This document shows, in pieces, positions 8,341 to 25,686 of a stretch of 64,000 nt of DNA. The DNA is from Empedobacter sedimenti. GTDB taxonomy: Bacteria; Bacteroidota; Bacteroidia; Flavobacteriales; Weeksellaceae. Each line of letters begins with the position of its first letter. Positions within the stretch are counted from its first letter, which is position 1. The stretch covers positions 1 to 64,000 of the forward strand of contig NZ_JASCQG010000010.1 in assembly GCF_030005555.1 (NCBI RefSeq). The letters are read 5' to 3'. A program made the position numbers and the translations under genes. The notes under the pieces were generated by a model, which had not been told where the DNA came from, did no database searches, and saw nothing but the letters and a program-made list of their open reading frames with translations.

Positions 8341-8341
8341 G

Positions 8342-8719
8342 ATGTTCAAATTCGATAAAAAATCATTCATCATTGCGATTATAATTTTCTTAGTGGAAGT
8401 TTTTATTGCACTTTTTATCAAAGACAAAATCATTCGCCCTTTTGTTGGCGATATTTTAGTCGTAATTTTTATTTACTATTTTATCAAAGCATTTATCAAC
8501 ACAAAAGCGATTAACATTGCCATTTTTACATTGATTTTTTCTTTTGTTGTAGAAATTTTACAATATTTCAATTTTGTAGAAATGATTGGTTTAGGACATA
8601 ACAAAGCAGCTCGAATAATTATCGGAACATCTTTTTCGTGGATCGATTTACTATGTTATTTCGTCGGATTTGTTCTATTATTTTTTATTGATAAAGATTT
8701 GAAGAAAAATAAATTATAA
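8342..8719 (+). CDS. DUF2809 family membrane protein
   Basis: 125 residues from the ATG at 8342, which comes 1 nt after the previous stop; a longer frame (8321) would overlap the upstream gene and is less likely. Four hydrophobic helices are visible, with the DUF2809 pattern IRPFVGDILVVIF in the second and FSFVVEILQ in the third, followed by GTSFSWIDLLCYFVG. The family is of unknown function in the inner membrane. Lies within the hutH-hutU stretch, apparently part of the same transcript. Confidence 0.75.
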   Translation: MFKFDKKSFIIAIIIFLVEVFIALFIKDKIIRPFVGDILVVIFIYYFIKAFINTKAINIAIFTLIFSFVVEILQYFNFVEMIGLGHNKAARIIIGTSFSWIDLLCYFVGFVLLFFIDKDLKKNKL

Positions 8720-8755
8720 TCCTAGAGATTCTTCGACAATCTCAGAGTGACAACA
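8720..8755. repeat. Dispersed extragenic repeat, copy 1
   Basis: Contains GATTCTTCGACAA-TCTCAGAGTGACAA, very similar to positions 11276-11300 and to part of 36671-36706. Sits in the short gap between the DUF2809 gene and hutU. Sequences of the form AGATTCTTCGACAA..TCAGAATGACA recur between genes in many Bacteroidota genomes. Confidence 0.55.
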
Positions 8756-8791
8756 AAAAACGTTCAACGTAAAACATAAAAACACCAAAAA

Positions 8792-10771
8792 ATGACTTTT
8801 CAAGAACAAATAAAACAAGGTATTCCTTCTGTTTTACCTCAAAAAAAAGACAGAAATCCTAATGTAAGCCACGCACCAAAGCGTAAAGAAATATTATCGG
8901 AAGACGAAAAAAAGTTAGCACTTAAAAATGCGTTACGTTATTTCGAACCAAAAGATCATGCTGAACTAATTCCAGAATTTAAGCAAGAATTAGAAGATTT
9001 CGGAAGAATTTACATGTATCGTTTGATGCCTGATTACAAAATTTTTGCTCGTCCAATTACAGATTATCCAGGAGATTCAGAACAAGCAAAAGCAATTCAA
9101 TTAATGATTCAAAATAATTTGGATCACGCAGTTGCACAACATCCAGAAGAATTAATCACCTATGGTGGAAATGGTGCCGTTTTCCAAAACTGGGCGCAAT
9201 ATCTATTAACGATGAAATATTTGTCTGAAATGACAGAAGAGCAAACCTTGGTGATGTATTCTGGGCATCCAATGGGTTTATTTCCTTCAAACAAAAATGC
9301 TCCGCGCGTTGTCGTTACGAATGGAATGGTGATTCCTAATTACTCGAAACCGGATGATTGGGAAAAGATGAATGCGTTAGGTGTTTCTCAATATGGGCAA
9401 ATGACTGCAGGAAGTTATATGTACATTGGTCCGCAAGGAATTGTTCATGGAACAACGATTACCGTTTTGAATGGTTGTCGCAAAATTGACAATGAAGGAA
9501 CTGCTGGTAAATTATTTGTTACGGCAGGACTTGGTGGAATGTCTGGTGCGCAACCGAAAGCGGGAAATATTGCAGGAGTTGTATCTGTTACTGCCGAAGT
9601 GAATCCTGCTGCGACATACAAACGTCACGAACAAGGTTGGGTGGACGAAGTGATTACTGATTTGGATGAATTGGTTGCTCGTGTTCGCGAAGCCAAAGAA
9701 AATAAAGAAGTTGTTTCGATTGCTTATGATGGAAATGTGGTGGATGTTTGGGAAAAATTTGACCAAGAAAATCTATACATCGACTTAGGTTCAGATCAAA
9801 CCTCTTTGCATAATCCTTGGGCTGGTGGTTATTATCCTGTTGGATTATCATTTGACGAAGCCAATGAAATGATGGCAAATAATCCTGAATTATTCAAAGA
9901 AAAAGTACAAGAATCGCTGCGTCGTCATGCAGATTCTGTCAACAAACATACTGCAAAAGGAACGTATTTCTTCGATTATGGAAATGCCTTTTTGTTAGAA
10001 GCTTCTCGTGCTGGAGCAGATGTTATGGCTGAAAATAATATCGATTTTAAATACCCAAGTTATGTTCAAGACATTATGGGACCAATGTGTTTCGATTTTG
10101 GATTTGGACCTTTCCGTTGGGTTTGTACATCAGGAAATCCTAAAGATTTACAAAAAACGGATGAAATTGCTTGCCAAGTTTTAGAAGAAATCATGCAACA
10201 TTCTCCGAAGGAAATTCAACAACAAATGCAAGATAATATCACATGGATAAAAGGTGCGCAAGAAAACAAATTGGTTGTCGGATCTCAAGCACGTATTCTA
10301 TATGCAGATGCAGAAGGACGAATTAAAATTGCGAAAGCCTTTAACGATGCAATTTCAAAAGGTGAAATCGGAGCAGTTGTTTTAGGTCGTGATCATCATG
10401 ATGTTTCTGGAACAGATTCTCCTTTCCGTGAAACGTCTAATATTTATGATGGTTCAAAATTCACAGCTGATATGGCAATTCACAATGTAATTGGCGATAG
10501 TTTCCGTGGTGCAACTTGGGTTTCTATTCACAACGGTGGTGGCGTTGGTTGGGGAGAAGTTATCAATGGTGGTTTCGGAATGTTGTTAGATGGATCTTCG
10601 GATGCTGAACAACGTTTAAAATCGATGTTGCATTGGGATGTAAACAATGGAATTGCTCGTCGTTCTTGGGCAAGAAATGAAGAAGCTATTTTTGCGATCA
10701 AACGCGCGATGGAAGAAGAACCTTTGTTGAAAGTGACATTACCAAATATGGTTGATGAAAAATTACTATAA
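8792..10771 (+). CDS. hutU: Urocanate hydratase
   Basis: Adds water to urocanate to form imidazolonepropionate, second step of histidine degradation; uses tightly bound NAD+ as an electrophile. At 659 residues it belongs to the longer form seen in Bacteroidota, about 100 residues longer than the classical bacterial enzyme. Recognisable segments: YGGNGAVFQNWAQ, YSGHPMGLFPS, TAGLGGMSGAQPKA (NAD site), MGPMCFDFGFGPFRWVC with the conserved cysteine, and HNGGGVGWGEVINGG near the end. Its stop overlaps the next start by 1 nt (TAATG). Preceded by the DUF2809 gene and a dispersed repeat. Confidence 0.95.
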   Translation: MTFQEQIKQGIPSVLPQKKDRNPNVSHAPKRKEILSEDEKKLALKNALRYFEPKDHAELIPEFKQELEDFGRIYMYRLMPDYKIFARPITDYPGDSEQAKAIQLMIQNNLDHAVAQHPEELITYGGNGAVFQNWAQYLLTMKYLSEMTEEQTLVMYSGHPMGLFPSNKNAPRVVVTNGMVIPNYSKPDDWEKMNALGVSQYGQMTAGSYMYIGPQGIVHGTTITVLNGCRKIDNEGTAGKLFVTAGLGGMSGAQPKAGNIAGVVSVTAEVNPAATYKRHEQGWVDEVITDLDELVARVREAKENKEVVSIAYDGNVVDVWEKFDQENLYIDLGSDQTSLHNPWAGGYYPVGLSFDEANEMMANNPELFKEKVQESLRRHADSVNKHTAKGTYFFDYGNAFLLEASRAGADVMAENNIDFKYPSYVQDIMGPMCFDFGFGPFRWVCTSGNPKDLQKTDEIACQVLEEIMQHSPKEIQQQMQDNITWIKGAQENKLVVGSQARILYADAEGRIKIAKAFNDAISKGEIGAVVLGRDHHDVSGTDSPFRETSNIYDGSKFTADMAIHNVIGDSFRGATWVSIHNGGGVGWGEVINGGFGMLLDGSSDAEQRLKSMLHWDVNNGIARRSWARNEEAIFAIKRAMEEEPLLKVTLPNMVDEKLL

Positions 10772-11148
10772 TGAATAGACTTATTTCTGCATTTAGTTTA
10801 TTATTTATTATCTTTTCTTGTAATCAAAATTCAAATTGTGAAGCTTTTCTTAGAATAGATAAAAACGATGAATGTTTAATGATTGTAGAAAATAAAGATT
10901 GGGGAACAAGTGGGAATTTAGCAATGGATGGACGAAATCCATTTACCAATGAAAAATGTGATTGTAATGAACAAAATCGATGGTGGGCGAACTATAGAAA
11001 AGAAATAAATATTGGTGACACAATCATCAAAAGAAAAGGCGAATTAACATTTAACATTCACAAAAGAGATAGTATTATTTCTCATGAATGGGAATGTGAT
11101 GGTAAAACTTATAATATTGATGGTTCCATAAAAAATATTGAACCTTAA
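10771..11148 (+). CDS. Small lipoprotein of unknown function
   Basis: 125 residues with a lipoprotein signal (lipobox FIIFSC, Cys17). The mature part is short and polar and contains several cysteines (Cys23, the ECL, CDC and WECDG positions), which could form disulfides outside the cytoplasm. The start codon overlaps the hutU stop by one base, so it is translationally coupled to hutU. No family recognised. A strong terminator follows at 11153-11181, closing the hut transcript. Confidence 0.65.
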   Translation: MNRLISAFSLLFIIFSCNQNSNCEAFLRIDKNDECLMIVENKDWGTSGNLAMDGRNPFTNEKCDCNEQNRWWANYRKEINIGDTIIKRKGELTFNIHKRDSIISHEWECDGKTYNIDGSIKNIEP

Positions 11149-11152
11149 TCAT

Positions 11153-11181
11153 AAAAGCATCTCAAATGAGATGCTTTTATA
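11153..11181 (+). terminator. Terminator of the hut transcript
   Basis: AAAAGCATCTC (11153-11163) pairs perfectly with GAGATGCTTTT (11168-11178) around an AAAT loop, with T-rich 3' side. It begins 4 nt after the lipoprotein stop. Confidence 0.85.
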
Positions 11182-11204
11182 GTTTAATCACTTAATGCGC
11201 ACCT

Positions 11205-11300
11205 AAAACGAGTTCAGGATGACTTTGTTTGTCGTTCAGAATGTAGTGTTATCTAAATGACGAATCACGAGAAAATTCTTCGACAAACTCAGAATGACAA
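11205..11300. repeat. Dispersed extragenic repeats, copy 2
   Basis: Two parts. 11205-11246 (AAACGAGTTCAGGATGACTTTG … TTCAGAATGTAG) matches 36612-36656 closely. 11272-11300 (ATTCTTCGACAAACTCAGAATGACAA) matches the copy at 8726-8753. The rest of this 289-nt gap holds the hut terminator and the pirin promoter. Confidence 0.6.
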
Positions 11301-11394
11301 TTACTCATTATTCTTAAATCGCATTCATAATCAACCATAATTTACTTAAAATCGCTTCTTAACCTACATCAAGATAATCGATAATATGGCTTCG

Positions 11395-11402
11395 TAAATT
11401 TG
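11395..11402 (+). promoter_or_regulatory. Candidate -7 element for the pirin gene
   Basis: TAAATTTG fits TAnnTTTG, 35 nt before the pirin start codon, after the repeats in this gap. A -33 TTG at the usual distance is not evident. Confidence 0.4.
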
Positions 11403-11437
11403 TATAACAAAAGTAAAAACGTATAAAACATATCATT

Positions 11438-12310
11438 ATGAATACAAAAAATATAGAAGCAGTTATCGCTCCAAGAGAACCACATTATGTAGGAGACGGA
11501 TTTAGAGTTCACAATTTTATTCCAAGTGGTTATCATTTAGATATGAAAAGAATGGATCCATTTATTATGTTAGATTATAATTCGAAATTTCATTTTCCAG
11601 CAACAGACAAACCAAAAGGTGTTGGTGTGCATCCACATCGCGGTTTCGAAACGGTAACAATTGCTTATGAAGGAAGCGTTTCTCACCACGATAGTTCTGG
11701 TGGAGGAGGAACAATTCATCAAGGAGATGTACAATGGATGACTGCGGCTTCTGGTGTTTTGCACAAAGAATATCATGCAGAAGAATTTTATAAACAAGGA
11801 GGTATTTTCCAAATGGTTCAATTATGGGTAAACCTTCCTGCAAAAGATAAAATGAGTGCGCCTAAATATCAAGCGATTGAACACAAAAGCATTCCAACGG
11901 TAGAAGTTGAAAATGGTTTTGTAGAAGTTATTGCAGGTGAATACAACAAAACGAAAGGTGCTGCGTCTACATTTTCTCCTGTTAATATGTTGAATGCAAA
12001 ATTGAATGAAGGAGGAAAAGCAAATTTCAGTTTTCCTGCAAATTACAATACCGTTTTATTAGTTATTGAAGGCGAAGTAAAAGTAAATAACCAAGAAGTT
12101 GTACCAACAGATCATTTATTATTATTTACAAATGAAGGCGAAGATTTCTCTATCGAAGCAACAGAAAATAGTGTGGTATTAATTTTGAGTGGAGAACCTT
12201 TGAATGAACCAATTGCTTCTTATGGTCCTTTTGTGATGAATACACAAGAGCAAATTCGCGAAGCATTTGACGATTTCAATAACGGAAAATTTGGTACTTT
12301 AGAGGATTAA
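11438..12310 (+). CDS. Pirin family protein
   Basis: A 290-residue bicupin. The N-terminal pirin cupin shows the metal ligands His65, His67 (HPHRGFET), His109 and Glu111 (LHKEYH), with the GGGGTIHQGDVQWMTAASG segment between them; the C-terminal half is the pirin_C domain. Some bacterial pirins act as quercetin dioxygenases and others bind partner proteins; which applies here cannot be read from sequence. The metal site is intact. It has its own candidate promoter and is followed 25 nt later by a small GNAT gene on the same strand. Confidence 0.92.
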   Translation: MNTKNIEAVIAPREPHYVGDGFRVHNFIPSGYHLDMKRMDPFIMLDYNSKFHFPATDKPKGVGVHPHRGFETVTIAYEGSVSHHDSSGGGGTIHQGDVQWMTAASGVLHKEYHAEEFYKQGGIFQMVQLWVNLPAKDKMSAPKYQAIEHKSIPTVEVENGFVEVIAGEYNKTKGAASTFSPVNMLNAKLNEGGKANFSFPANYNTVLLVIEGEVKVNNQEVVPTDHLLLFTNEGEDFSIEATENSVVLILSGEPLNEPIASYGPFVMNTQEQIREAFDDFNNGKFGTLED

Positions 12311-12335
12311 TAAACAACTTAAAAACATAAAACTG

Positions 12336-12617
12336 ATGGAAATTAAACAAATTGACGACAAGAAAAATGGAGCTTTTTTCGTGTTAGATGGAGATAAAAA
12401 AGCTGGAGAAATGGCTTATGTTTGGGCTGGTGATGATAAGATCATTATCGATCATACAGAAGTTGACGAAGCCTATGGTGGACAAGGAGTTGGTAAAAAA
12501 GCTTTACTTGCTTTAGTAGATTGGGCAAGAAAAGAAAACATCAAAGTAATTCCTTTGTGTCCTTTTGCAAAAGCGCAGTTTGAAAAAAATCCAGAAATTA
12601 GAGATATCTTATCTTAA
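12336..12617 (+). CDS. Small GNAT-type N-acetyltransferase (YjdJ/NATD1-like)
   Basis: A 93-residue minimal GNAT domain, the normal size for this subfamily. The acetyl-CoA loop is seen as YGGQGVGKKALLALVDWAR at about residues 48-66, followed by the subfamily's VIPLCPFAKAQFEKNP ending. Substrate unknown. The gene follows pirin after 25 nt, a pairing that suggests co-transcription. Downstream (12618-12873) there is no further gene: the gap holds A/T-rich sequence, the metN promoter/operator and a hairpin. Confidence 0.88.
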   Translation: MEIKQIDDKKNGAFFVLDGDKKAGEMAYVWAGDDKIIIDHTEVDEAYGGQGVGKKALLALVDWARKENIKVIPLCPFAKAQFEKNPEIRDILS

Positions 12618-12759
12618 GAAATAATTACTATGAATTTCGATTATACAATAATAAATCGTAATCTTAAATATTAATTTGAAAATTTATTCTGCAAGATGGT
12701 TATTTTGTAGAATAAATTTCATTTTTAATAAAAAATCATTCAAAAAAAACTAATTATTT

Positions 12760-12806
12760 TTGCATAACTTTTTATAAGTCCATAATTTTAATAGACTTTA
12801 TAAAAG
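12760..12806 (+). promoter_or_regulatory. metNIQ promoter with inverted-repeat operator (AAGTC-N13-GACTTTA)
   Basis: TTG at 12760-12762, 20 nt, then TAATTTTA at 12783-12790 (one base off TAnnTTTG). The -7 element is enclosed by AAGTC (12776-12780) and GACTTTA (12794-12800), which are inverted copies. The TonB-receptor promoter at 19985-20027 has the same half-sites, same 13-nt spacer, same position relative to -7. An overlapping TATTTTTG at 12755-12762 is an alternative -7; it fits the consensus better but has no matching -33. Confidence 0.55.
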
Positions 12807-12818
12807 CAAAAAAACACA

Positions 12819-12858
12819 ACCTCTCTGCATTTATTTATAATAATTGAGAGGTTTTTTT
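12819..12858 (+). terminator. Hairpin with T-tract in the metNIQ leader (possible attenuator)
   Basis: AACCTCTC (12819-12826) pairs with GAGAGGTT (12846-12853), 19-nt loop, followed by a T-run to 12858. It lies only 15 nt before the metN ATG and after the predicted promoter, so it could stop transcription before metN. It may instead terminate read-through from the upstream GNAT gene. Confidence 0.55.
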
Positions 12859-12873
12859 ATTAAGATTTTTAAA

Positions 12874-13911
12874 ATGATTGAACTAAAAAACATATCCAAA
12901 ACTTTCAGAACTTCTAAAAGAGAAATTCATGCTTTGCGCGATGTTTCTTTGCAGATTGAAGAAGGAAAAATTTTTGGAATCATTGGTAAATCTGGTGCCG
13001 GAAAAAGCACCTTGATTCGCTGTGTTAATTTATTAGAACGACCTGATACAGGAGAAGTTTTGATAAATGGAACAAATTTATTGAACTTAAGTAATTCAAA
13101 ATTAACTTTAGAAAGAAGAAAAATCGGAATGATTTTTCAACATTTCAATTTACTTTCTTCGCGAACTGTAGAAGAAAATATTGCTTTTCCGATGGAATTG
13201 GAAGGTATCTCAAAAAGCCAAATAAGAACAAAGGTTGACGAACTTTTACACCTTGTTGGTATTCACGAAAAAGCAAAGGAATATCCTACAAATTTATCGG
13301 GCGGACAAAAACAACGTGTTGCAATAGCGCGTGCTTTGGCTAATAATCCAACTGTTTTGTTGTGTGACGAAGCAACAAGTGCGTTAGATCCTGCGACTAC
13401 AAAATCTATTTTGAGATTGTTGAAAGAAATCAATCAACGACTTAATCTGACAATTTTATTGATTACTCATGAAATGGAAGTGATTAATTCTATTTGTGAT
13501 GAAGTTGGAGTGATTGAAAATGGAAAATTGGTAGAACATGGTACAGTAGAAGAAATTTTTACTAATCCGAAAGAAAATATCACGCAAGAATTTATCAAAA
13601 ATTCATTGGATATAGCTTTACCACTAAGTTTTCAGAAAAATTTGGTTGATACTTATTCAGAAAATGACTCAACAATTTATAAAATCAATTTCACGAATCA
13701 ACCAAAATTCAATCAACTTATTGCAGAAATAAATTCGTTGTATAATATTGAAGCAGAAATCGTAAATTCAAGAATCGAATATGCTGGAGAAATCAATTAC
13801 GGAACATTTTTCTTGAAAATTAATTCAAAAGAAAACTCAGCAATCGAAACATATTTACAGCAAAATAAATTTAATTTAGAAAAAATCGGTTATGTCAGAA
13901 GCAGTTATTAA
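12874..13911 (+). CDS. metN: Methionine ABC transporter, ATP-binding protein
   Basis: Cytoplasmic ATPase of the D/L-methionine importer. 345 residues from the ATG at 12874; a longer frame opening at 12844 would run through the leader hairpin and is rejected. Walker A GKSGAGKST, Q-loop FQHFNLL, signature LSGGQKQR, Walker B VLLCDEATSALD and switch histidine (LLITHEM) are all present. The last ~80 residues form the ACT-like NIL domain that binds methionine and inhibits transport in this family. metI overlaps its end by 20 nt. Predicted regulation by the shared operator at 12760-12806. Confidence 0.96.
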   Translation: MIELKNISKTFRTSKREIHALRDVSLQIEEGKIFGIIGKSGAGKSTLIRCVNLLERPDTGEVLINGTNLLNLSNSKLTLERRKIGMIFQHFNLLSSRTVEENIAFPMELEGISKSQIRTKVDELLHLVGIHEKAKEYPTNLSGGQKQRVAIARALANNPTVLLCDEATSALDPATTKSILRLLKEINQRLNLTILLITHEMEVINSICDEVGVIENGKLVEHGTVEEIFTNPKENITQEFIKNSLDIALPLSFQKNLVDTYSENDSTIYKINFTNQPKFNQLIAEINSLYNIEAEIVNSRIEYAGEINYGTFFLKINSKENSAIETYLQQNKFNLEKIGYVRSSY

Positions 13912-14545
13912 TCTATTACTTAAGGGAACTTGGGAAACAGTTTTGATGACATTTGTTTCCGGATTTTTTGGTTTTGTACTTGGTCTTCCAATCGGAATCT
14001 TCTTGTTTTTAACGAGAAAAGGACAATTATTAGAAAACAAATTGGTTAATCAAATTTTAGCCTTTTTTGTCAATATTTTCAGATCAATTCCATTCATTAT
14101 TCTAATCGTTTGGATGATTCCTTTTACACGAAGTTTAGTTGGAACATCAATCGGCGTTTCTGCTGCCTTGGTACCTCTTAGTATTGGAGCCGCACCATTT
14201 ATAGCGCGTTTAGTAGAAAATAGTTTATTAGAGATTCCTGAAGGTTTGATAGAAGCAGCACGTTCTATGGGTGCAAAACCTTCGCAAATCATTTTCAAAG
14301 TTTTGTTACCAGAAGCATTACCATCGTTAATAAATGCCGCAACAATTACGTTAATTACTTTAGTCGGCTATTCGGCAATGGGTGGCGCTGTAGGAGCTGG
14401 CGGATTAGGACAAATCGGATATCAATATGGTTATGTAGGATATGATACTTTTATTATGAATACCGTTTTAATTCTATTAATAATTATCGTTTTTATCATC
14501 CAATTTACTGGTGATTTCTTATCAAAAAAATTCAATCATAAATAA
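13892..14545 (+). CDS. metI: Methionine ABC transporter, permease
   Basis: 217-residue inner-membrane permease with about five transmembrane helices and the EAA loop that docks on MetN (EAARSMGAKPSQIIFKVLLP at ~125-144). The SIPFIILIVWMIPFTR and GYSAMGGAVGAGGLGQIGYQYGY segments are typical of MetI. Its start lies inside the metN 3' end (20-nt overlap), implying coupled translation, and metQ follows after 8 nt. Confidence 0.95.
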   Translation: MSEAVINLLLKGTWETVLMTFVSGFFGFVLGLPIGIFLFLTRKGQLLENKLVNQILAFFVNIFRSIPFIILIVWMIPFTRSLVGTSIGVSAALVPLSIGAAPFIARLVENSLLEIPEGLIEAARSMGAKPSQIIFKVLLPEALPSLINAATITLITLVGYSAMGGAVGAGGLGQIGYQYGYVGYDTFIMNTVLILLIIIVFIIQFTGDFLSKKFNHK

Positions 14546-14553
14546 TTTAAACA

Positions 14554-15363
14554 ATGAAAAAGTTAATTAAAAATATACTTCTTACAACACTATCAGCACT
14601 TGCTTTAACATCATGTGGAGAATCTAAAACTGATGCAAATACAATACGTGTTGGTGTAATGACTGGACCTGAATTTGAAGTGGCTCAGGTTGCGAAACAA
14701 GTTGCAAAAGAAAAATACAATTTGGAAGTAGAATTGATCACTTTCAATGATTATATTATTCCGAATGAAGCGTTGAATCAAGGAGATTTAGATGTTAATG
14801 CTTACCAAACAGTTCCATTTTTAGAAGAACAAGAAAAACAACGTGGTTACAAATTAGAACCTATTGGAAATACATTTTTATACCCAATCGTTGGATATTC
14901 TAAAAAAATAAAATCTATAAATGAATTAAAAGAAGGTAATACAATTGCTATTCCGAATGATCCAGCTAATGGAGGTCGATCTTTATTGTTGTTACAAAAA
15001 ATAGGTTTAATTAAATTGAAAGATGGTGTAGGGTTATTTCCTAAATTAACTGATATTGTTTCTAATCCTAAAAAATTAGAGATTTTAGAATTAGAAGCTC
15101 CTCAATTACCTCGTGTTTTAGATGATGAAAAAGTAGCGATTTCTGTTATTAATAATAATTTTGCAGGACAAGCTGGTTTAGATGCTAAAAAACAAGGAAT
15201 TTTTACAGAGGATAAAGAATCTCCTTATGTCAATATCATTGTGAGTCGTGAAGACAACAAAAACGATGAAAAAGTGAAGAAATTTGTACAAGCATACCAA
15301 TCTGAACAAGTTGCTAAAAAAGCAGACGAAGTATTCAAAGGTGGAGCTATAAAAGGTTGGTAA
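14554..15363 (+). CDS. metQ: Methionine-binding lipoprotein
   Basis: Substrate-binding component of the methionine importer (NlpA/MetQ family). 269 residues; signal peptide with lipobox ALTSC, Cys21. The family segments VGVMTGPEFEVAQ, DVNAYQTVPFL (here DVNAYQ at ~85-90) and IAIPNDPANGGRSLLLLQ are present. Some members bind Gly-Met or other dipeptides, which the sequence alone cannot exclude. Last gene of metNIQ; a strong hairpin terminator follows. Confidence 0.95.
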   Translation: MKKLIKNILLTTLSALALTSCGESKTDANTIRVGVMTGPEFEVAQVAKQVAKEKYNLEVELITFNDYIIPNEALNQGDLDVNAYQTVPFLEEQEKQRGYKLEPIGNTFLYPIVGYSKKIKSINELKEGNTIAIPNDPANGGRSLLLLQKIGLIKLKDGVGLFPKLTDIVSNPKKLEILELEAPQLPRVLDDEKVAISVINNNFAGQAGLDAKKQGIFTEDKESPYVNIIVSREDNKNDEKVKKFVQAYQSEQVAKKADEVFKGGAIKGW

Positions 15364-15382
15364 AATAATTATTTATAATATT

Positions 15383-15413
15383 AAAAAGGCTATTCAATTG
15401 AATAGCCTTTTTG
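15383..15413. terminator. Bidirectional terminator between metQ and ggt
   Basis: AAAAAGGCTATTC (15383-15395) pairs perfectly with GAATAGCCTTTTT (15400-15412) around the AATT centre. A-tract and T-tract on the two sides let it serve both convergent units. Confidence 0.9.
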
Positions 15414-15427
15414 TTTATCTAACTTTT

Positions 15428-17095
15428 TTAATACCCTACTGCCTTATCATCTCCTCGCGGATCTGCTCCAGCTTGATATGTTCCATCCTTGTTTACCAAA
15501 ATTCCTTCTACACGTCCATAAGGTTTACGTTCTTTCAACTTATAACCTTTTTGTTTTAACGTTTCGCGAACATTTTCTGAAATCGCATTTGGTTCATAAT
15601 CGATCTGGTCTGGCAACCATTGATGATGAAATCTTGGTGCTGCAACAGCTTCTTGCATTGTCATTCCAAAATCAACAACATTCAAAATTGCTTGAAAAAC
15701 AGACGTAATAATTGTAGAACCACCCGGCGTTCCCACAACCATAAACAATTTACCATCTTTCTCTAAAATCGAAGGTGTCATCGAACTTAACATTCTTTTC
15801 GAAGGTTCAATCGCATTGGCTTTTCCTCCAACCAAACCATATAAATTAGGCGTTCCTGGTTTTACAGAAAAATCATCCATTTCATCATTCAACAAAAATC
15901 CAGCTCCTTCTACAACAACCAAAGATCCGTACGAATTATTCAACGTTGTGGTTACAGAAGCCGCATTTCCATCTTTATCAACAATTACATAATGTGTTGT
16001 TTCCATCGATTCTTTACCAATCATTTCTCCCGCTTTAATTGCTGAACTTGGTGTTGCTTTATCAAACGAAAAATCTTTCATTCGATTCACATTATAACTT
16101 TTATCCAATAATTGTTTTTGCGGAACTTTTATAAAATCTGGATCACCTAAATGCTCTGCGCGATCAGCATAAACGCGACGTTCTGCTTCTACCATCACTT
16201 GAATTGTAGAATCTGCCTGAAATCCCCATTTGTTGATTGGATAATCTTCAATTGATTGAAATAACGAAACCAAAGCAATTCCACCACTTGAAGGCGGCGG
16301 CATCGAAATCACTTTAAGACCTTTATAATTTCCAGAAACTGGCGTTCTCCAAACCGATTGATATTCTTTTAAATCTTCGTGTGAAATAATTCCGTTTCCA
16401 CTTTTCATTTCTTTCACTATTAAATCAGCTGTTTTTCCTTCATAAAAACCAGCTCGACCTTTTTGCTGAATTAATTTTAACGTATTAGCTAAATCTTTCT
16501 GAATTAGTAAATCGCCTTCTTTCCAAGATGATTTAGAGGTTAAAGCATTTATTTTCTGATTATATTTTACAAAATCATTGTGTTTATTTGTCAATTCGCT
16601 CGCTTGCTGTTTTGTGATTTTAAATCCTTTTTGAGCTAAATTAATAGCTGGCTGAACTAATTCTTTCCAATTTAATTTACCATATTTTTCGTGCGCTTTT
16701 ACCATTCCATCAACTGTTCCGGGAACACCTGCAGCAAATTGTCCATACAAACTAAGATCAGTAATTGCATTGCCGTTTTTGTCCCAATACATATCTTCAC
16801 TCGCTTTTAAAGGTGCTTTTTCACGATAATCTAACGCATCGGTCTTTCCTTTTGCATCGCGATAAACCAAAAATCCACCGCCACCAATATTTCCTGCATT
16901 TGGGTAAACAACCGCCAACGCAAACTGAACTGCAATAGAAGCATCAATCGCATTTCCACCTTTTTTCAGAATTTCAACTCCAACTTTTGAAGCTTCTGGA
17001 TGAGCTGTTACAACAACTCCATTTTTGTATGATTCTTGCGCATTCAACTGAATAATCGCCAAGAATGAAACTATAATAAATGATATTTTTTTCAT
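15428..17095 (-). CDS. ggt: Gamma-glutamyltransferase (glutathione hydrolase), secreted
   Basis: Cleaves the gamma-glutamyl bond of glutathione and related peptides outside the cytoplasm, releasing glutamate and e.g. Cys-Gly. 555 residues from the methionine at 17095, which opens a signal peptide (MKKISFIIVSFLAIIQLNAQ); the frame extends 21 codons further but without good content. The autocleavage site is the TTHY motif, with Thr366 as the predicted catalytic nucleophile of the small subunit. Substrate-binding elements SMTPSI and GTPGGSTI follow. It lies 77 nt downstream of the TonB receptor on the same strand with no terminator between, so the two probably form one transcript. Confidence 0.93.
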   Translation of the reverse strand: MKKISFIIVSFLAIIQLNAQESYKNGVVVTAHPEASKVGVEILKKGGNAIDASIAVQFALAVVYPNAGNIGGGGFLVYRDAKGKTDALDYREKAPLKASEDMYWDKNGNAITDLSLYGQFAAGVPGTVDGMVKAHEKYGKLNWKELVQPAINLAQKGFKITKQQASELTNKHNDFVKYNQKINALTSKSSWKEGDLLIQKDLANTLKLIQQKGRAGFYEGKTADLIVKEMKSGNGIISHEDLKEYQSVWRTPVSGNYKGLKVISMPPPSSGGIALVSLFQSIEDYPINKWGFQADSTIQVMVEAERRVYADRAEHLGDPDFIKVPQKQLLDKSYNVNRMKDFSFDKATPSSAIKAGEMIGKESMETTHYVIVDKDGNAASVTTTLNNSYGSLVVVEGAGFLLNDEMDDFSVKPGTPNLYGLVGGKANAIEPSKRMLSSMTPSILEKDGKLFMVVGTPGGSTIITSVFQAILNVVDFGMTMQEAVAAPRFHHQWLPDQIDYEPNAISENVRETLKQKGYKLKERKPYGRVEGILVNKDGTYQAGADPRGDDKAVGY

Positions 17096-17172
17096 AAAAA
17101 TCGATTTAAACAAAAATACCAAACCTTCATCAATTAAGACAAAGATTTGGTAAAACATATAAACTATTTCAA

Positions 17173-19974
17173 TTATAAATTCAATGATAAACGAGCGAAG
17201 GCAAAACGTCCTCCAGTTCCGAATTGTTGTCCAGTACGTGAATACACGAAATATCCTGCACCTCTATTTCCTCCAATTTTCGTTTCATCAGGATAGATAT
17301 CAAACAAATTATTTGCACCGATCGTCAACGATATATTTTTATTAAAAGCATATCCAAAACTTAAATCCGTTACAACTTTTCCGCTAAATGTTTGTGATTC
17401 TTCTATAGTATTTGTCGCTGCATCAACTTCTCCGAAGTAAACATTTCGCAAATAAACATTCCATTTATCTAGAGAATAATTAAGTGATAAATTAACCTTT
17501 GTACGAGGAACAGCCGATTCTAAATAAATACGACTTGAACGATCAAAATAAGTAGATTCTTTTCCTTTCAATAAATCCGAAGCATGAACGTCGCCCACAA
17601 CATTTGTTTTACTAAAAGTCGCCGATAAATCTCCACGTAATTTCCCAGCTCCCAAACGATCTTGATATGTTAAAACAACATCTACTCCTTTCGTTTCGGT
17701 ATCAATTGCATTGGCGAAGAAACGTGCAGAAGTTGCATTAGCTTGTTGCAATAATTCATAAATCTCTTTGTCTTGAGCTGAAGCATTTGCAGCATTACTT
17801 CCTTTAAATGACCCTGTATAAATAATACGATCATCTATACGAATGAAATATCCATCAACACTCAACTTGAATTTTCCCCAATTTGCTGTTATACCAGCAG
17901 AAACTGATTTCGATTTTTCTTCGTTCAATTGTGGGATTCCTAATAATTTTGCGGCGCGACTATCATTTGTAAAAGTTCCTGAATTAGAAATTGCTCCGTC
18001 TAAGAATAAACTTGATGTTGCACTAAAATATAATTGATGCAAAGATGGTGCTCTAAATCCTGTACTTGCAGCGGCTCTCAATACATAGTTTCCTAATTTG
18101 TATCGTGTCGAAATTTTTCCATTTAACGTTGATCCAAAATCTGAATAATCTTCGTAACGTAAGGCTGTAGCAACTAAGAAATCTTTTGAAAAATTAAATT
18201 CCGTATCCAAATATGCCGCTACAGAATGACGATTTGCGTTGACTTCGTTCGCTGGTAAAAATCCAGGAAAAGCTTGCGCTCCACCCGCTAAAGCAGTTCC
18301 ATTTGCAGCGAATAATGTATTGATATTTCCGTTAAAATCTTGTACATAAATTGGCTTTCCATTTCCGTCTACACCAATTTGGCGAACTTTACCATAATTT
18401 GCATAAGATGATTCTTCACCTCCTACAATTTGATAATTTTCGTAACGAAATTCTGCACCAAAAGCCACATTAATTCCAGCTAAGGCATCATCAAAAAATC
18501 GTGTAAAATCTAGGTTAGTCGTATTTTGAGTAAAACGATATCCACCAGCTTCAAAAGATGTTGGCGAAGATTCTTTCATCGATGCGTTAACTGTATTTTT
18601 GACTCCAAAATCGATGGTATTATTTCCGTATGTGTTCGAAAAATCAACTTTCCAACCGTTAATTTCACTACGAATCCCGGCTGATAATGAACGGTCATAG
18701 TTATTTGTTTCAATTAAAGGCAGATATCCATTTGGAAAAATTGAAGCAACTGTTTGGTGTAATTGAGCAGGTTGACGACGAAAAGCTGTCGATTCACCCA
18801 AACGATAATTTAAACCTCCAAACGTATAAATTTCAGTTTTATCTGAAACTGGAAAAAGTGAATTAAGAAAGATTGCTCCTCCTTCATTTTTTGATTGTCC
18901 GATTCGAGAAACATAATCTGCACGTGTTTCTCCACGGCGTGCTAATTCTTCGTTTGTAATATCTTTTCCTGTTGGATTTGGGTATAAATCTGGTCGATTA
19001 TAATCAGAAAAAATTGTTCCTGTAAACTCTTTTTGACGATTAAATGGTTGACGTTTGTCGTAAGAACCTGCAAGATTTACAAATCCTCCTTTTTCACCCA
19101 CTTTTACACCATAATTTACATTCGCTTGAAAAGTTTCACCATCAAAATTATCTTCTGCATTTTTCGATAGATTTCCTCCATAGGAAATTGATGCACGCAA
19201 TTTATCTGTCGAATCTTCCAAGACAATATTGATCACACCTGCAATCGCATCAGAACCATATTGAGCAGCGGCTCCATCTCGAAGAATTTCAATTCTTTTA
19301 ATCGCAGAAGTTGGAATCGCATTCAAATCTGTACCGACAGAACCTTTACCAAATGAACCATTAATATTAACCAATGATGTTGTATGACGACGTTTTCCGT
19401 TAATCAAAACCAATACTTGATCTGGTCCTAAACCTCGCAAAGAAGCAGGATCAATATGATCTGTTCCATCAGAAATAACTTGCGTATTCGAGCTAAAAGA
19501 TGGCGCAACATAATTTAAGATTTGATTCAACGAAACTTGTCCCACATCTTTTGTTACTTCTTTGATGTCAATTACATCAACTGGTGTTGAAGAGTCTAAC
19601 TGTGTACGACCTACTGCACGAGAACCAATCAAAACAACTTCGTTAAGATTCGTTTGTTCTTCTGTTTGCTCTAAAAAAAAATCTAAAGCTACTTCAGCAT
19701 CTTCGCTTACATTAATTGTTTGCGTTGTTGTTGGCTCACCTATTTTCGAAACAGTAATCTCGTATTTACCAGGCTCTAATGTTAATTGATACAAACCACT
19801 TACATCAGTAATTGTTGTAATATTGGTTCCTTTTACATTAATGGTTGCTTGATCGATTGGTCCATTTAAATCTTCAACCGTACCTGTTACTTTCGTTTGG
19901 GCAAATAAAAGTGTTCCGCCGAAAAGAGCGGTGATAAAAAATATTTTTTTGAGTGAGTATAATTTCTTGTTCAT
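17173..19974 (-). CDS. TonB-dependent outer-membrane receptor
   Basis: 933 residues from the methionine at 19974, which begins a signal peptide ending LLFAQ. An in-frame ATG 48 nt upstream lies 5' of the predicted -7 element (19996-20003), so it cannot be on the transcript. Order: signal peptide 1-~26; carboxypeptidase-like beta-sandwich (VTGTVEDLNGPI … YEITVSKIG) to ~110; plug domain (LNQILNYVAPSF, LRGLGPDQVLVLINGKRRH, IEILRDGAAAQYGSDAIAGVINIVL); long 22-strand-type barrel with aromatic C-terminus. Energised uptake across the outer membrane; ligand unknown. No SusD partner lies next to it. Operon with ggt and operator shared with metNIQ hint at sulfur-containing or gamma-glutamyl compounds; this is inference. 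Confidence 0.9.
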   Translation of the reverse strand: MNKKLYSLKKIFFITALFGGTLLFAQTKVTGTVEDLNGPIDQATINVKGTNITTITDVSGLYQLTLEPGKYEITVSKIGEPTTTQTINVSEDAEVALDFFLEQTEEQTNLNEVVLIGSRAVGRTQLDSSTPVDVIDIKEVTKDVGQVSLNQILNYVAPSFSSNTQVISDGTDHIDPASLRGLGPDQVLVLINGKRRHTTSLVNINGSFGKGSVGTDLNAIPTSAIKRIEILRDGAAAQYGSDAIAGVINIVLEDSTDKLRASISYGGNLSKNAEDNFDGETFQANVNYGVKVGEKGGFVNLAGSYDKRQPFNRQKEFTGTIFSDYNRPDLYPNPTGKDITNEELARRGETRADYVSRIGQSKNEGGAIFLNSLFPVSDKTEIYTFGGLNYRLGESTAFRRQPAQLHQTVASIFPNGYLPLIETNNYDRSLSAGIRSEINGWKVDFSNTYGNNTIDFGVKNTVNASMKESSPTSFEAGGYRFTQNTTNLDFTRFFDDALAGINVAFGAEFRYENYQIVGGEESSYANYGKVRQIGVDGNGKPIYVQDFNGNINTLFAANGTALAGGAQAFPGFLPANEVNANRHSVAAYLDTEFNFSKDFLVATALRYEDYSDFGSTLNGKISTRYKLGNYVLRAAASTGFRAPSLHQLYFSATSSLFLDGAISNSGTFTNDSRAAKLLGIPQLNEEKSKSVSAGITANWGKFKLSVDGYFIRIDDRIIYTGSFKGSNAANASAQDKEIYELLQQANATSARFFANAIDTETKGVDVVLTYQDRLGAGKLRGDLSATFSKTNVVGDVHASDLLKGKESTYFDRSSRIYLESAVPRTKVNLSLNYSLDKWNVYLRNVYFGEVDAATNTIEESQTFSGKVVTDLSFGYAFNKNISLTIGANNLFDIYPDETKIGGNRGAGYFVYSRTGQQFGTGGRFAFARLSLNL

Positions 19975-19984
19975 ATCTATAATT

Positions 19985-20027
19985 TTAAAGTCTAGCAAAG
20001 TTATAGACTTTATAGAATACAAAACAA
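19985..20027 (-). promoter_or_regulatory. Promoter of the TonB receptor-ggt unit with inverted-repeat operator
   Basis: On the minus strand: TTG (complement of 20025-20027), 21 nt, TAACTTTG (complement of 19996-20003), an exact TAnnTTTG. A perfect 8-bp inverted repeat, AAAGTCTA (19987-19994) and TAGACTTT (20004-20011), flanks the -7 element. Half-sites, spacing and position match the metNIQ promoter. Confidence 0.65.
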
Positions 20028-20152
20028 GTCCTGATTAGATAAAATAAAAGAAAACAATAAAATTTAGATAATTTAAAAACATATTCTAAATATTTTACTA
20101 TTTTTAGAATTAAATTCTAAATAAGTGGCAGTTAACAAAACATTTTGAAACA

Positions 20153-20184
20153 AAAAAGGGAACTCGTAATGAGTTCCCTTTTTA
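20153..20184 (-). terminator. Terminator of rimP-nusA-infB
   Basis: AAAAAGGGAACTC (20153-20165) pairs with GAGTTCCCTTTTT (20171-20183) around GTAAT; 21 nt past the infB stop. Between here and the receptor promoter (20040-20150) only A/T-rich sequence is seen. Confidence 0.88.
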
Positions 20185-20204
20185 TATATTGAGAGAAATT
20201 AATC

Positions 20205-23200
20205 TTATTTCAATTTCTTTTTAACCTCTACAGTTTCATAAGCTTCAATAATATCATTTACTTGAATATCATTAAAGTTTTTGATGTTAAGACCACATTC
20301 GTAACCTTTACTAACCTCTTTCACGTCATCTTTGAAACGTTTCAATGAAGCTAATTCACCATCGTGAATTACTACACCATCACGAATGATACGAATTTTA
20401 GAGTTTCTGTAAACTTTACCATCTAATACCATACATCCTGCAATAGTACCAACTTTAGTAACTTTGAAAGTCTCACGAACTTCAATATTACCAGTTACTT
20501 GCTCTTTCAATTCTGGAGATAACATACCTTCCATCGCTTCTTTGATCTCTTCAATCGCAGCATAGATGATAGAATAAGTTCTGATTTCTACTTCTTCTTT
20601 ATCTGCAATTTCGCGAGCTGATCCACCTGGACGAACGTTAAATCCGATAATAATCGCATCTGAAGCAGAAGCTAATAATACGTCAGATTCTGTAATTTGT
20701 CCAACACCTTTATGTAAGATGTTAACGATAATCTCTTCAGTAGAAAGTTTTTGTAATGAATCTGTTAATGCTTCAACAGAACCATCCACGTCACCTTTCA
20801 AGATAATATTTAACTCTTTGAAATCTCCTAAAGCAATACGACGACCAATCTCATCAAGCGTAATGTGTTTTTGTGTACGAATAGTTTGCTCACGTTGTAA
20901 TTGATCTCTACGAGATGCAATTTGTTTCGCTTCACGCTCGTCTTCGTAAACTTTAAACTTATCACCTGCAGTTGGCGCTCCGTCTAAACCTAAAATTGTA
21001 ACTGGTGTAGATGGCCCAGCAACTTTTACGTTGTTACCGCGCTCATCTAACAATGCACGAACTTTACCGTGGTGAGACCCTGCTAATACATAATCTCCGA
21101 TGTGTAAAGTACCTGTTTGTACAATAATAGTAGATACATATCCACGTCCTTTATCTAAAGCAGCTTCTACAACTGTACCTGATGCTTTACGTTTTGGATT
21201 AGCTTTAAGATCTAATACTTCAGCTTCTAATAATACTTTTTCTAATAAATCATCAACACCTAAACCAGATTTAGCAGAGATTTCTTGAGACTGGTAAGTA
21301 CCACCCCAATCTTCAACTAATAAGTTCATTTGAGCTAATTGCTCTTTTACTTTTTCTGGATTAGCAGCTGGTTTATCAATTTTGTTGATTGCAAAAATCA
21401 TTGGTACACCTGCAGCTTGTGCGTGAGAAATTGCCTCACGTGTTTGTGGCATGATTTGATCATCCGCCGCAATCACAATAATTGCAATATCTGTTACTTG
21501 AGCTCCACGAGCACGCATCGCTGTAAAAGCTTCGTGACCAGGAGTATCTAAGAACGCTACACGTTTTCCACTTGATAAAGTTACATTATATGCACCGATA
21601 TGTTGTGTAATACCTCCAGACTCACCTGCAATTACATTTGCTTTACGAACGTAATCTAATAACGATGTTTTACCGTGGTCAACGTGTCCCATTACAGTTA
21701 CGATTGGCGCACGTGTTACTAAATCTTCTTCGTTATCGATTTCTTCTTCTTCTGTTGAGATTTCCTCTTCAGCATTTGCAAATACAGCTTCGAATCCGAA
21801 ATCATCTGCAACTAACTGAATTGTATCAGCTTCTAAACGTTGGTTCATTGTTACCATGATACCTAAAGACATACATGCAGAAATAACTTCTGTTACAGAT
21901 ACATCCATTAAAGATGCTAATTCATTAACAGTAACAAATTCTGTTACATGTAATGTTTTGTCCATATCCATCGCTTCTTGCTCCATTTCGGCAAATTCAC
22001 GACGTTGGTTACGTTTATCTCTTCTGTGTTTTGCACCTTTTGCTCCCTTACCTTTATTCGTAAGTTTATCTAAAGTGTCTTTAATTTGTTTTTTAACATC
22101 TTCATCAGAAAGTTCTACTTGCGGTGCACGTTGTCCACCTCTAAAGTTATTATTTCCTGGACGATTGTTTCCTCCTTGGCGATTTCCACCACCTTGTCCG
22201 CCTGGACGGTTATTTCCACCTGGACGATTTCCTCCTTGGTGGTTGTTATTACCTCCTTGACGGTTATTGTTTCCACCTTGGTGGTTGTTATTACCTCCTT
22301 GACGGTTGTTATTATTGTTTCCTCCGTTTTCACCAGCTTTTGCTACATCTTCTGGCTTAACATTTTTCTGGATACGTTTACGCTTCTTCTTGTCAGCAGC
22401 ATTGTTGTTACCACCTTTTTGATTTCCTTGTTTTGGATCAGGTTTTTTCTTATCAAATTTAGATAAGTCAATTTTAGCTCCAGTAAAATTAGGTCCATCT
22501 AATTTGGTATAAACTGTCTCAATTTTTTGAGATTCAGCTGCTACTTCTTCTGTTTCTTCTTTCTTCACTTCAGGCTTCGCTTCCGATTTTATTTCAGGCT
22601 TTTTAACCTCTTCAACCTTTTTAGGTTCTTCTTTCTTCACCTCTTTTTTAACTTCCGCCTTCGGTGCTTCCGCCTTTTTAGGTTCTGCTTGCTCTTTTTT
22701 AGGAGCTGGAGAATCTTGTTTTTTAGGTTTACCCGTATTATTTATTTTATCAAGATCGATTACTTTGATCACTTTCGGACCTTTTACTTCTTCTTTTGAT
22801 TCAGTTTTTTCTTCAACTTTAGGAGCTGGAGTTTCTTCTTTCTTGATTTCTTGTTTTACTTCTTCCTTAGCTGGCGTTTTTTCCACCTTTGCTTTCGGTT
22901 TCAAAGCATCTAAGTCTATTTTACCAACAGTCTTAGGACCTTCTAACTCTACCTTAGTCGTTTGCACTACTTCTGGTTTTTCTACCACAACAGGTTTTTC
23001 AGCAGCTACTTTAGCATCTGCTTCTTTTTTCTCTGCTGCTTTGATATCAGAAATTTTGTTAATGACTACTTCACCAGAAGCTTGCTTTTGTTTAGCATCT
23101 GACCGGAACTCATTAACTAAAATATCGTAAGTCGGCACATCGATTTTAGAGTTTGGGTTTTTTTCTACTGTTTTACCTTTGGCTTCTAAAAAATCAACAG

Positions 23201-23258
23201 CTCTATCTATTGATATATTTAATTCTTTTAATACTTTACTTAATCTTATTTCCGGCAT
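20205..23258 (-). CDS. infB: Translation initiation factor IF-2
   Basis: GTPase that places initiator tRNA on the 30S subunit. 1017 residues. N-terminal IF-2N helix bundle (1-~50), then a long Lys/Glu/Pro-rich charged stretch (~60-290), an Asn/Gly/Gln-rich repeat tract (~310-378), a second IF-2N-like segment, and the G domain with GHVDHGKTS (~523), DTPGHEAF and NKIDK, followed by domains II-IV. Last gene of the rimP-nusA-infB order conserved in bacteria, 65 nt after nusA. The repeat tract contains a 42-nt DNA repeat (see separate entry). Confidence 0.97.
22234..22307. repeat. 42-nt direct repeat inside infB
   Basis: 32 identical bases at 22234-22265 and 22276-22307, offset 42 nt, i.e. 14 codons, encoding the ([14 protein letters not shown]) type peptide repeat of IF-2. 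Being in frame, copy-number change would lengthen or shorten the linker without breaking the protein. Confidence 0.75.
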
Positions 23259-23323
23259 ATGAAACTAATCTCTTATTTTATAATGTTTGCAAATTTACAA
23301 ATTGTTTATGAATTGAGTGTGAA

Positions 23324-24559
23324 TTAATCTTCAAACTCTTCTTTTAAGACACGGATAACCTCTAAAATTGTTTCCTCTTCTAGGTCAGTACGCTTAATTA
23401 AGTCATCAACATCTTGTTCTAAAATACTTTTTGCAGTATCTAATCCGATTGCACTAAATGCATCGATTACCCACGCATCAATTTCGTCTGAGAATTCTGA
23501 TAATTCTACATCCTCGTCTTGCGCACCTTCTCTGAAAATATCAATTTCCATTCCAACTAATTTAGATGCTAAACGTACGTTATAACCTCCTTTACCAATT
23601 GCTTTAGAAACTTCTTCTGGACTTACATGTACTAATGCTTTATTCTCTTCCTCGTTAATTTCGATATTCGCAATTTTCGCAGGACTTAAAGCGCGTTGTA
23701 TGTACAAACTTTGGTTGTTAGTATAGTTAATTACGTCGATGTTTTCGTTACGTAATTCGCGTACGATCGAGTGGATACGAGATCCTTTCATACCAACACA
23801 AGCTCCAACAGGATCGATACGATCATCGTAAGATTCTACTGCAACTTTTGCTTTATCTCCAGGGATACGAACTACATTTTTGATTGTAATTAATCCATCT
23901 AAAATTTCTGGAATTTCTTGTTCAAATAATTTCTCTAAGAATTTTGGTGATGTTCTTGATAAAATAATTTGAGGTTTTGCTCCTCTTAATTTTACGTCAT
24001 CTACAACAGCACGTAATGTATCTCCTTTTCTGAAAAAATCTGATGGAATTTGATTTTCTTTTGGTAAAATCATTTCGTTTTGTTCGTCATCCATAATAAT
24101 CACTTGTTTGTGACGTACATAGTGGATTTCTCCTGAAACTACTTCTCCTATTAAACCTTTAAATTTCTCGTATAAATTAGAGTTATCATGCTCCATTACT
24201 TTAGAAACCAATGTTTGACGTAATGTTAAAATAGCACGACGACCTAATGCTTCGATCGGAATTTTTTCCGATACTTCTTCACCTACTTCAAAATCTGGCT
24301 CAATTTTACGTGCTTCAGATAATTCAATATCTGTTGCATCATCTTCTGAGAAACCGTCTTCTACAACGATACGGTTGTGCCAAATCTCTAAGTCTCCTTT
24401 ATCAGGATTTACAATAATATCAAAGTTATCATCTGTACCATATTTCTTTTTCAAAACACTTTTCAGGGTTTCTTCTAAGATTGCCATCAGCGTAATACGG
24501 TCGATGTTCTTATCGTCTTTAAAATCTCCAAAAGATTCAATTAATGCAAGATTGTCCAT
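23324..24559 (-). CDS. nusA: Transcription termination/antitermination factor NusA
   Basis: RNA polymerase-binding factor controlling pausing, termination and antitermination. 411 residues: N-terminal polymerase-binding domain (1-~130), S1 domain (EVVSGEIHYVRHKQVIIM region, ~140-200), and two KH domains (GACVGMKGSRIHSIVRELRNENIDV and ISKAIGKGGYNVRLASKLVGMEIDI, i.e. VSKAIGKGGYN near 310). A short acidic tail replaces the repeated C-terminal AR domains of E. coli NusA, which is usual outside proteobacteria. Starts 15 nt after rimP stop. Confidence 0.96.
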   Translation of the reverse strand: MDNLALIESFGDFKDDKNIDRITLMAILEETLKSVLKKKYGTDDNFDIIVNPDKGDLEIWHNRIVVEDGFSEDDATDIELSEARKIEPDFEVGEEVSEKIPIEALGRRAILTLRQTLVSKVMEHDNSNLYEKFKGLIGEVVSGEIHYVRHKQVIIMDDEQNEMILPKENQIPSDFFRKGDTLRAVVDDVKLRGAKPQIILSRTSPKFLEKLFEQEIPEILDGLITIKNVVRIPGDKAKVAVESYDDRIDPVGACVGMKGSRIHSIVRELRNENIDVINYTNNQSLYIQRALSPAKIANIEINEEENKALVHVSPEEVSKAIGKGGYNVRLASKLVGMEIDIFREGAQDEDVELSEFSDEIDAWVIDAFSAIGLDTAKSILEQDVDDLIKRTDLEEETILEVIRVLKEEFED

Positions 24560-24574
24560 TAAACTTTAATTTTT

Positions 24575-25042: not shown

Positions 25043-25095
25043 CGAAAAAGAGAGCTATAACCAGCCCTCCTCCATTTATTCCTTTAAATTCTCTG

Positions 25096-25103: not shown

Positions 25104-25146
25104 GGTAAATATTTTTTACTGACCTAATTTCAGCAATTTAATCTCT

Positions 25147-25632: not shown

Positions 25633-25686
25633 GTTTTTGTATTTTTAAAAATGTAACTTTGTACAATTCAATTCCATTCTATTTAT

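Follow-up and report, generated by a model that had tools for sequence, protein, structure and literature searches.

Why should a methionine importer and an outer-membrane receptor share one inverted repeat at their promoters? The question is raised by positions 1 to 64,000 of contig NZ_JASCQG010000010.1 of Empedobacter sedimenti (hereafter the window, 64 kb in length), where the metNIQ genes and a unit consisting of a TonB-dependent receptor gene and ggt are both preceded by such a repeat. We conclude that the repeat is probably an operator through which a dimeric Rrf2-family regulator, here called Rrf2A, controls a sulfur (cysteine) regulon; the gene for Rrf2A lies outside the window.

The initial annotation had described the repeat as AAGTC-N13-GACTTTA at 12776-12800 on the plus strand and at 20010-19986 on the minus strand. 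Both copies are present, and the second also matches on the opposite strand (19988-20012). This makes three matches in 64 kb; 100 shuffles gave 0.01 on average and never as many as three. For the longer palindrome AGTCTAT-N7-ATAGACT, allowing up to one mismatch, the window has two matches (12775-12799 and 19987-20011) and 100 dinucleotide shuffles had none; its core, the part that recurs, is TCTAT-N7-ATAGA with AG before and CT after it. The inverted repeat is thus real, and chance does not account for it. Elsewhere in the genome, AAGTC-N13-GACTTTA has one further match, a G+C-richer repeat at C45:141815. When the two promoters were aligned again, 24 of 32 bases were identical, as the annotation had stated, and the distance from the TTG, which we take to be the -33 element by the Bacteroidota promoter consensus, to the -7 element is indeed 20 nt at metN and 21 nt at the receptor gene.

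In the whole host genome (3.24 Mb, with the reversed motif as control), four palindromes with at most one mismatch stand against none in the control. All four are intergenic and lie ahead of transport genes, namely metNIQ, the TonB receptor-ggt unit, a symporter gene of the SDF family, and a second TonB receptor gene. The 14 genomes of the genus gave 30 sites versus 10 in the control, so that the enrichment before other genes which the annotation had proposed as a check was found. At up to three mismatches the motif was rarer than the control in the host (128 versus 184 per strand), i.e., not enriched, and no weight is placed on such loose matches. The core occurs 14 times in the host, compared with nine control matches. 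Five of the 14 precede cysH, cysD, cysN, the second TonB receptor gene, and the SDF symporter gene, and one precedes an aldo/keto reductase-like gene (assigned by eye), whose relative in genome G013 also has a site. Sites were scored with a position weight matrix (PWM) for which 13 sites served as the training set; none of these adjoins rrf2A. The cys copies are weaker ones: they lie 10 nt before the ATG of cysH (PWM 12.5), 7 nt before the start of cysN (14.8), and 307 nt before the start codon of cysD (12.1), the last with a long leader between. The cysH and cysD products carry PAPS_reduct domains and that of cysN a GTP-binding domain of the elongation-factor type; the cysDN names were assigned from gene order. 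Eight core matches were not counted as regulon sites, five inside open reading frames (ORFs; C7:72773, C14:9512, C41:139412, C42:14049, and C42:120571) and three outside ORFs with PWM scores below 1 (C1:221852, C23:62507, and C42:109141). Another inverted repeat, AAAGTCGAAAC...GTTTCGACTTT, is terminator-like, occurs in two copies (C3:98744 and C9:35470), and was set aside as a different element.

The annotation had tied the repeat to the -7 element, which is not borne out, as other copies sit upstream or downstream of the -7. The core lies directly upstream of it at the SDF gene, across it at metN and the TonB receptor-ggt unit, and just after it at the second TonB receptor gene and cysH. Because its position relative to the -7 varies among targets, the palindrome is not a promoter element. 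It fits a DNA operator, most simply one for a repressor, a sign that its position suggests. The annotation had further proposed a sulfur-source or methionine regulon. The sulfur part stands, with cysH, cysD, cysN, and a cysE-cysK-like pair among the candidate targets, and methionine appears as only one branch; the predicted regulon centers on cysteine and sulfate assimilation rather than on methionine.

Within the genus, 18 of the 30 sites are found at two genes, the SDF symporter gene (10) and the TonB receptor gene (8), and metN and the second TonB gene have one each. The SDF gene is present in 11 genomes and has the site in all 11, each time with a TAnnTTTG -7-like element directly after it; the G013 copy is included by its PWM score of 18.5. 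Eight of the nine genomes with the receptor gene carry the site with at most one mismatch, and in the same eight a ggt motif adjoins the receptor. In G009, the ninth, the copy is degenerate (PWM 12.5) and the 1.5-kb flanks of the receptor gene contain no ggt motif. In G003:C11 near 76800 (L119), another SDF-like symporter gene is divergent from the TonB receptor gene, 155 nt from the operator. PF01507 matched strongly in eight genus genomes and weakly in G008, and all eight strong genomes have a copy scoring at least 8 at cysH, cysD, or cysN. The cysN genes of G006 and of the second G013 operon, in which cysH is followed by cysD and cysN, showed no copy. At L125 (G006:C5:66248), an operator-like site precedes a PEP mutase/isocitrate lyase-like gene, a look-alike of which lies near the host cysH.

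Across 246 genomes of the family, the exact motif occurs in 12 genomes, with 13 sites compared with 8 in the control. Two of the 13 belong to the SDF genes of G007 and G008, and one, without mismatch, precedes the cysE-cysK-like pair in G198 (hexapeptide-transferase and PALP domains). A further seven were found in genus g21, some 600 nt ahead of a gene for a SusC-like receptor; two are near genes for EamA-like and JmjC-like proteins (assigned by eye), and the last is inside a gene.

The link to a regulator came from rrf2A loci. Among 80 named Flavobacteriia loci, the best 80 of 496, a site with PWM of at least 12 lies within 250 nt downstream of rrf2A in 10 and upstream in one, compared with 0.18% of random windows. 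Of the 80 loci, 50 have the half-site pattern YCTA-N9-TAGR no more than 330 nt downstream, and 0-5 have a pattern with another spacer (3-8 and 10-17); random windows gave 3.2% and shuffled ones 2.3%. The enrichment beside rrf2A is specific to this spacing, which speaks for the repeat as the operator of Rrf2A. Behind rrf2A, 47 of the loci have a cysH-like motif, and YCTA-N9-TAGR is present in 45 of these; of the other 33 loci, 5 have it. From 59 matching Weeksellaceae genomes outside the genus, 18 loci were examined, and in 15 a copy (PWM of at least 7 or YCTA-N9-TAGR) lies at the rrf2A stop codon or up to about 30 nt beyond. In nine of these 15 the gene next to rrf2A is not cysH. Four of the nine, all g21 loci (L304, L308, L309, and L312), have instead a gene for a similar membrane protein, with the operator between; the one scanned, that of L304, is a TauE/SafE sulfite exporter and would add another sulfur gene to the candidate targets. 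Since these nine loci keep the site without cysH, it is tied to the regulator gene and not to cysH alone. At the g10 loci L296, L297, L298, L300, and L301, a half-degenerate copy is kept though the next gene is on the opposite strand or ribosomal-looking. In the host, a site at C1:5794 near rrf2A looked autoregulatory and was dropped, as it lies inside an ORF resembling tilS.

Rrf2A matches the Pfam model PF02082 (C1:4248-4646) with 120.2 bits, the cut-off being 30. The wing motif Lx3Gx6Gx2GGx2L, given as conserved among Rrf2 proteins in part of PMC9338935, is present as L52-x3-G56-x6-G63-x2-G66G67-x2-L70 (alignment read by eye). The NCBIfam query comprised the 123 aa from the first ATG, lacking the first 12 of 135 aa, and scored 58.3 bits with the CymR model NF047409 (equivalog cut-off 195) and 58.1 bits with the IscR model TIGR02010 (equivalog cut-off 207.55). 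As both scores are far below the cut-offs, we place Rrf2A in the Rrf2 family only. Its best sequence relatives in the PDB are the BadM/Rrf2-family regulator 4cic and CymR (2y75, E 1.7e-14; 3t8r), followed lower down by IscR and NsrR. Cysteines 95, 104, 107, and 113 in the C-terminal half form a C-x8-C-x2-C-x5-C pattern and are invariant in 80 of 80 orthologs. An ortholog is present in all 14 congeners, with 86-99% identity where compared. Of all columns, wing column 65 best predicts the type of site: it is H in 25 loci, and all 25 have CCTA..TAGG. In Rrf2-DNA complexes, wing residues contact the operator ends, according to part of PMC9338935. Residue 65 was also considered as proof of binding, a use that was toned down after a tree of the loci; its association with site type is supportive, not proof.

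In the model that we favor, a dimer of Rrf2A would bind the palindrome YCTA-N9-TAGR, some 17-25 bp long and in the genus usually of the form AGTCTAT-N7-ATAGACT. When cysteine or sulfur is plentiful, Rrf2A would sit on the promoter and block RNA polymerase. Under sulfur limitation it would leave, and the sulfate-assimilation enzymes (cysH, cysDN) would be made together with importers of organic sulfur, metNIQ for methionine and the SDF-family amino-acid symporter; the TonB receptor and Ggt would then serve the import of, probably, glutathione or gamma-glutamyl peptides. What the sequences show directly is the palindrome itself, how far it is conserved, where it stands in the promoters, which genes it precedes, and how closely it is linked to rrf2A and cysH. 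From these we infer that Rrf2A binds the sites, that it represses, and that it responds to cysteine status.

Several observations weigh against this reading. The annotation had named conservation in relatives as a check, which came out in favor for the receptor copy and only in part for the metN copy: metN was found in four genus genomes and the site in only two of them, the host and G003, where AATCTCTATAAATTTGCTAGATTAT occupies the equivalent promoter position (PWM 16.5, outside the training set), whereas metN of G007 and G008 has no site scoring at least 8 in the PWM scan. Of the 30 genus sites, 10 are at varied other places, two of them inside genes, and G011 possesses Rrf2A and has no site with at most one mismatch. 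Copies at cysH of G002 (PWM 3.8) and cysN of G012 (PWM 0.0) are weak. The PWM scan found no site adjoining rrf2A in Empedobacter, and five g10 loci match by PWM only (10.7-22.7), their left half being degenerate. Rrf2A itself is found in 71 of 120 family genomes (E <= 1e-25). The exact motif is only mildly enriched in the family and so drifts between genera. Finally, the distribution of site types needs only about four changes on the tree, and the association with residue 65 is confounded by descent.

These points must be set against other explanations of the repeat. For a chance likeness arising from a shared -7 consensus, it can be said that TAnnTTTG makes up part of the spacer in both window copies. 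Against it, the shuffled windows produced no such palindrome and the half-sites outside the -7 are kept in relatives and recur at promoters with the -7 elsewhere, and we give it next to no credence. A role of the repeats as hairpins, of RNA or of single-strand DNA, in a riboswitch or leader structure is also highly improbable. Both window copies can fold weakly as single strands, and terminator-like hairpins exist in the metN and cysD leaders; however, the SDF palindrome lies upstream of the -7 and so would not be transcribed from that promoter, and no Rfam family reached its gathering score in 8000-26000.

More serious is the possibility that the repeat is a sulfur-regulon operator bound by another dimeric regulator, while rrf2A, in the same cys neighborhood, controls something else such as Fe-S assembly. 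IscR-type Rrf2 proteins classically control Fe-S genes, the four conserved cysteines point to a sensor of thiols or one with a cluster, the host genome has two further Rrf2 genes, and rrf2A of the host lacks an adjoining site. We nevertheless regard this as unlikely, given that nine Weeksellaceae loci keep the site with rrf2A although cysH does not follow, that rrf2A is the directly adjacent regulator gene and is found in every congener, and that a solved Rrf2-DNA complex has an operator fragment of similar size, 23 bp (PMC9338935, in part). As to the sign of control, a regulator that activates under sulfur limitation is quite unlikely: the sites overlap promoter elements, before, across, or after the -7, which is the usual place of a repressor. 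In its favor, the sign is unreadable from sequence and the cysD site of the host is far from the start codon. Repression by Rrf2A of a sulfur regulon remains the reading that we prefer.

The features of the window, and three relevant ones outside it, are given in Table 1. The gene assignments of the annotation hold, with Pfam and NCBIfam identifying metN, metI, and metQ at 12874-15363 and the TonB-dependent receptor followed by gamma-glutamyltransferase at 19974-15428. The best NCBIfam model for metN, ABC_MetN, scored 459 bits and thus below its cut-off of 499.7, and the TonB receptor had no specific NCBIfam model above cut-off. Ggt is probably exported, judging by eye from an N-terminal signal-like segment. 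For the SDF symporter, no NCBIfam model was found at E <= 0.001. In PDB alignments it has Gly where a neutral amino acid transporter has Cys, a column that we take to be position 467, presumably occupied by Arg in transporters of acidic amino acids. Glutamate is an unlikely substrate, and cystine is only a guess.

Table 1. Positions of the repeat copies, promoter elements, and genes discussed in the text (window coordinates unless a contig is named).
Feature	Position	Strand	Basis or remark
TTG, presumed -33 element, metN promoter	12760..12762	+	sequence
Putative palindromic operator, metN promoter, across -7, TAAGTCCATAATTTTAATAGACTTT	12775..12799	.	motif search, shuffles, PWM 26.2 (training row)
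-7-like element TAATTTTA, metN promoter, within palindrome	12783..12790	+	sequence
Terminator-like hairpin CCTCTC...GAGAGG then T7, metN leader	12820..12858	+	folding, z -1.9
metN, methionine ABC transporter ATPase	12874..13911	+	Pfam ABC_tran and NIL domain
metI, methionine ABC transporter permease	13892..14545	+	NCBIfam NF008049 above cut-off
metQ, substrate-binding lipoprotein	14554..15363	+	NCBIfam NF008285 above cut-off
ggt, gamma-glutamyltransferase / glutathione hydrolase	15428..17095	-	Pfam; NCBIfam TIGR00066 above cut-off
TonB-dependent outer-membrane receptor, carboxypeptidase-regulatory-like N-domain	17173..19974	-	Pfam
Putative palindromic operator, TonB receptor-ggt promoter, AAAGTCTATAACTTTGCTAGACTTT on - strand	19987..20011	.	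motif search, shuffles, conservation
-7 element TAACTTTG, receptor promoter, within palindrome	19996..20003	-	sequence
TTG, presumed -33 element, receptor promoter	20025..20027	-	sequence
rrf2A, Rrf2-family regulator gene	own genome C1:4245-4652, outside window		TTG start
Second TonB receptor site	C23:236551		short ORF between site and receptor gene
SDF-family symporter site	C34:98302		core ends 29 nt before gene

Some leaders hint at a second layer of control, for which the evidence from the metN, cysD, and SusC leaders is only suggestive. In G003 and G008, inspection by eye showed hairpins ahead of metN that are similar to that of the host metN leader. The host hairpin escaped the consensus terminator scan, its loop being longer than the scan permits, and the host metN leader has no short ORF starting at ATG. 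The cysD leaders of G000, G002, G004, and G005 contain a short ORF that includes Cys and Met codons, followed by a terminator-like hairpin; the short ORF of the G012 leader is without Cys. The host cysD leader, at G000:C12:56740-57048 (L250), holds the ORF MKNLVFNMSMYMCRSLQEEEIVVTY; the related leaders are L253, L240, L238, and L258. By eye, GAGGAGG in the cysD-leader ORF can pair with CTCCTCC of the following terminator-like hairpin, a possible attenuator. All seven SusC loci of g21 (L140, L142, L143, L146, L147, L148, and L150) have a short ORF between the palindrome and the SusC-like gene; its end, MCF..MMC(K/T)MMM plus one residue, is rich in Met and Cys and has the look of an attenuation leader, and ahead of the receptor gene a CCTCC...GGAGG hairpin may form in the RNA. 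Two receptor leaders, one of them a g21 SusC leader, were scanned for a consensus terminator, and neither has one. At G000:C23:236549-236811 (L083) in the host, a short ORF ending in HFRMRMHC separates the operator from the second TonB receptor gene.

We tentatively extend these observations to a wider and rather doubtful proposal. Flavobacteriia might own a master sulfur regulator, a four-cysteine Rrf2 protein that perhaps senses thiols or carries an Fe-S cluster and, through one palindrome, ties sulfate assimilation to the import of methionine, of amino acids, and of peptides of the glutathione type; at some targets, attenuation by Met/Cys-rich leader peptides ahead of TonB/SusC genes would be added. 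If the regulon is as we propose, a candidate regulator gene is at hand for a large clade, along with the sequence of its operator and a set of targets. The TonB receptor with Ggt and the SDF symporter would be predicted to serve sulfur uptake, which would help to assign substrates to outer-membrane receptors that lack them, and the CymR regulon of Firmicutes would suggest itself as a parallel. Among the matches listed in the open-access literature there was no Bacteroidota sulfur or cysteine regulator of this kind, and passages of PMC9723704, PMC12596196, and PMC13404960 describe none. The proposed sulfur regulator, conserved in flavobacteria, has apparently gone undescribed.

CymR of Bacillus and Staphylococcus, which binds DNA in complex with CysK when cysteine is present, resembles Rrf2A in belonging to the Rrf2 family. 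CymR regulates genes of cysteine synthesis and cystine uptake; the candidate targets here are metNIQ, the SDF symporter gene, the cys genes, and ggt, a set that would follow the same logic. In Staphylococcus aureus, CymR directly controls metNPQ, cysM, mccAB, and tcyABC, and deletion of cymR derepresses cystine importers including tcyP (PMC2869319, in part). B. subtilis CymR binds no iron-sulfur cluster, as stated in part of PMC9338935, whereas Rrf2A has four invariant cysteines, which may suit a cluster. The TonB receptor with gamma-glutamyltransferase would be a Gram-negative addition to such a regulon. IscR, NsrR, and RsrR likewise share with Rrf2A the family and a Cys-rich stretch in the C-terminal half. 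Other operators of the IscR/RsrR type are palindromic and of similar length. The NsrR operator fragment, of 23 bp, is similar in length as well (PMC9338935, in part). Rrf2A differs from these proteins in its C-x8-C-x2-C-x5-C arrangement and in its candidate targets, which concern sulfur acquisition and not Fe-S assembly or nitric oxide. McbR of Corynebacterium glutamicum and MetJ, SahR, and SamR also act on methionine and sulfur genes through palindromes, but belong to other families and have other half-sites. For the receptor-ggt unit, the counterpart is GisABCD-Ggt of S. aureus, in which gamma-glutamyltransferase and an importer allow the use of glutathione as a sulfur source (PMC10355420, in part). 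There, an ABC importer works with a cytoplasmic Ggt, whereas here a TonB receptor is paired with a Ggt that is probably exported.

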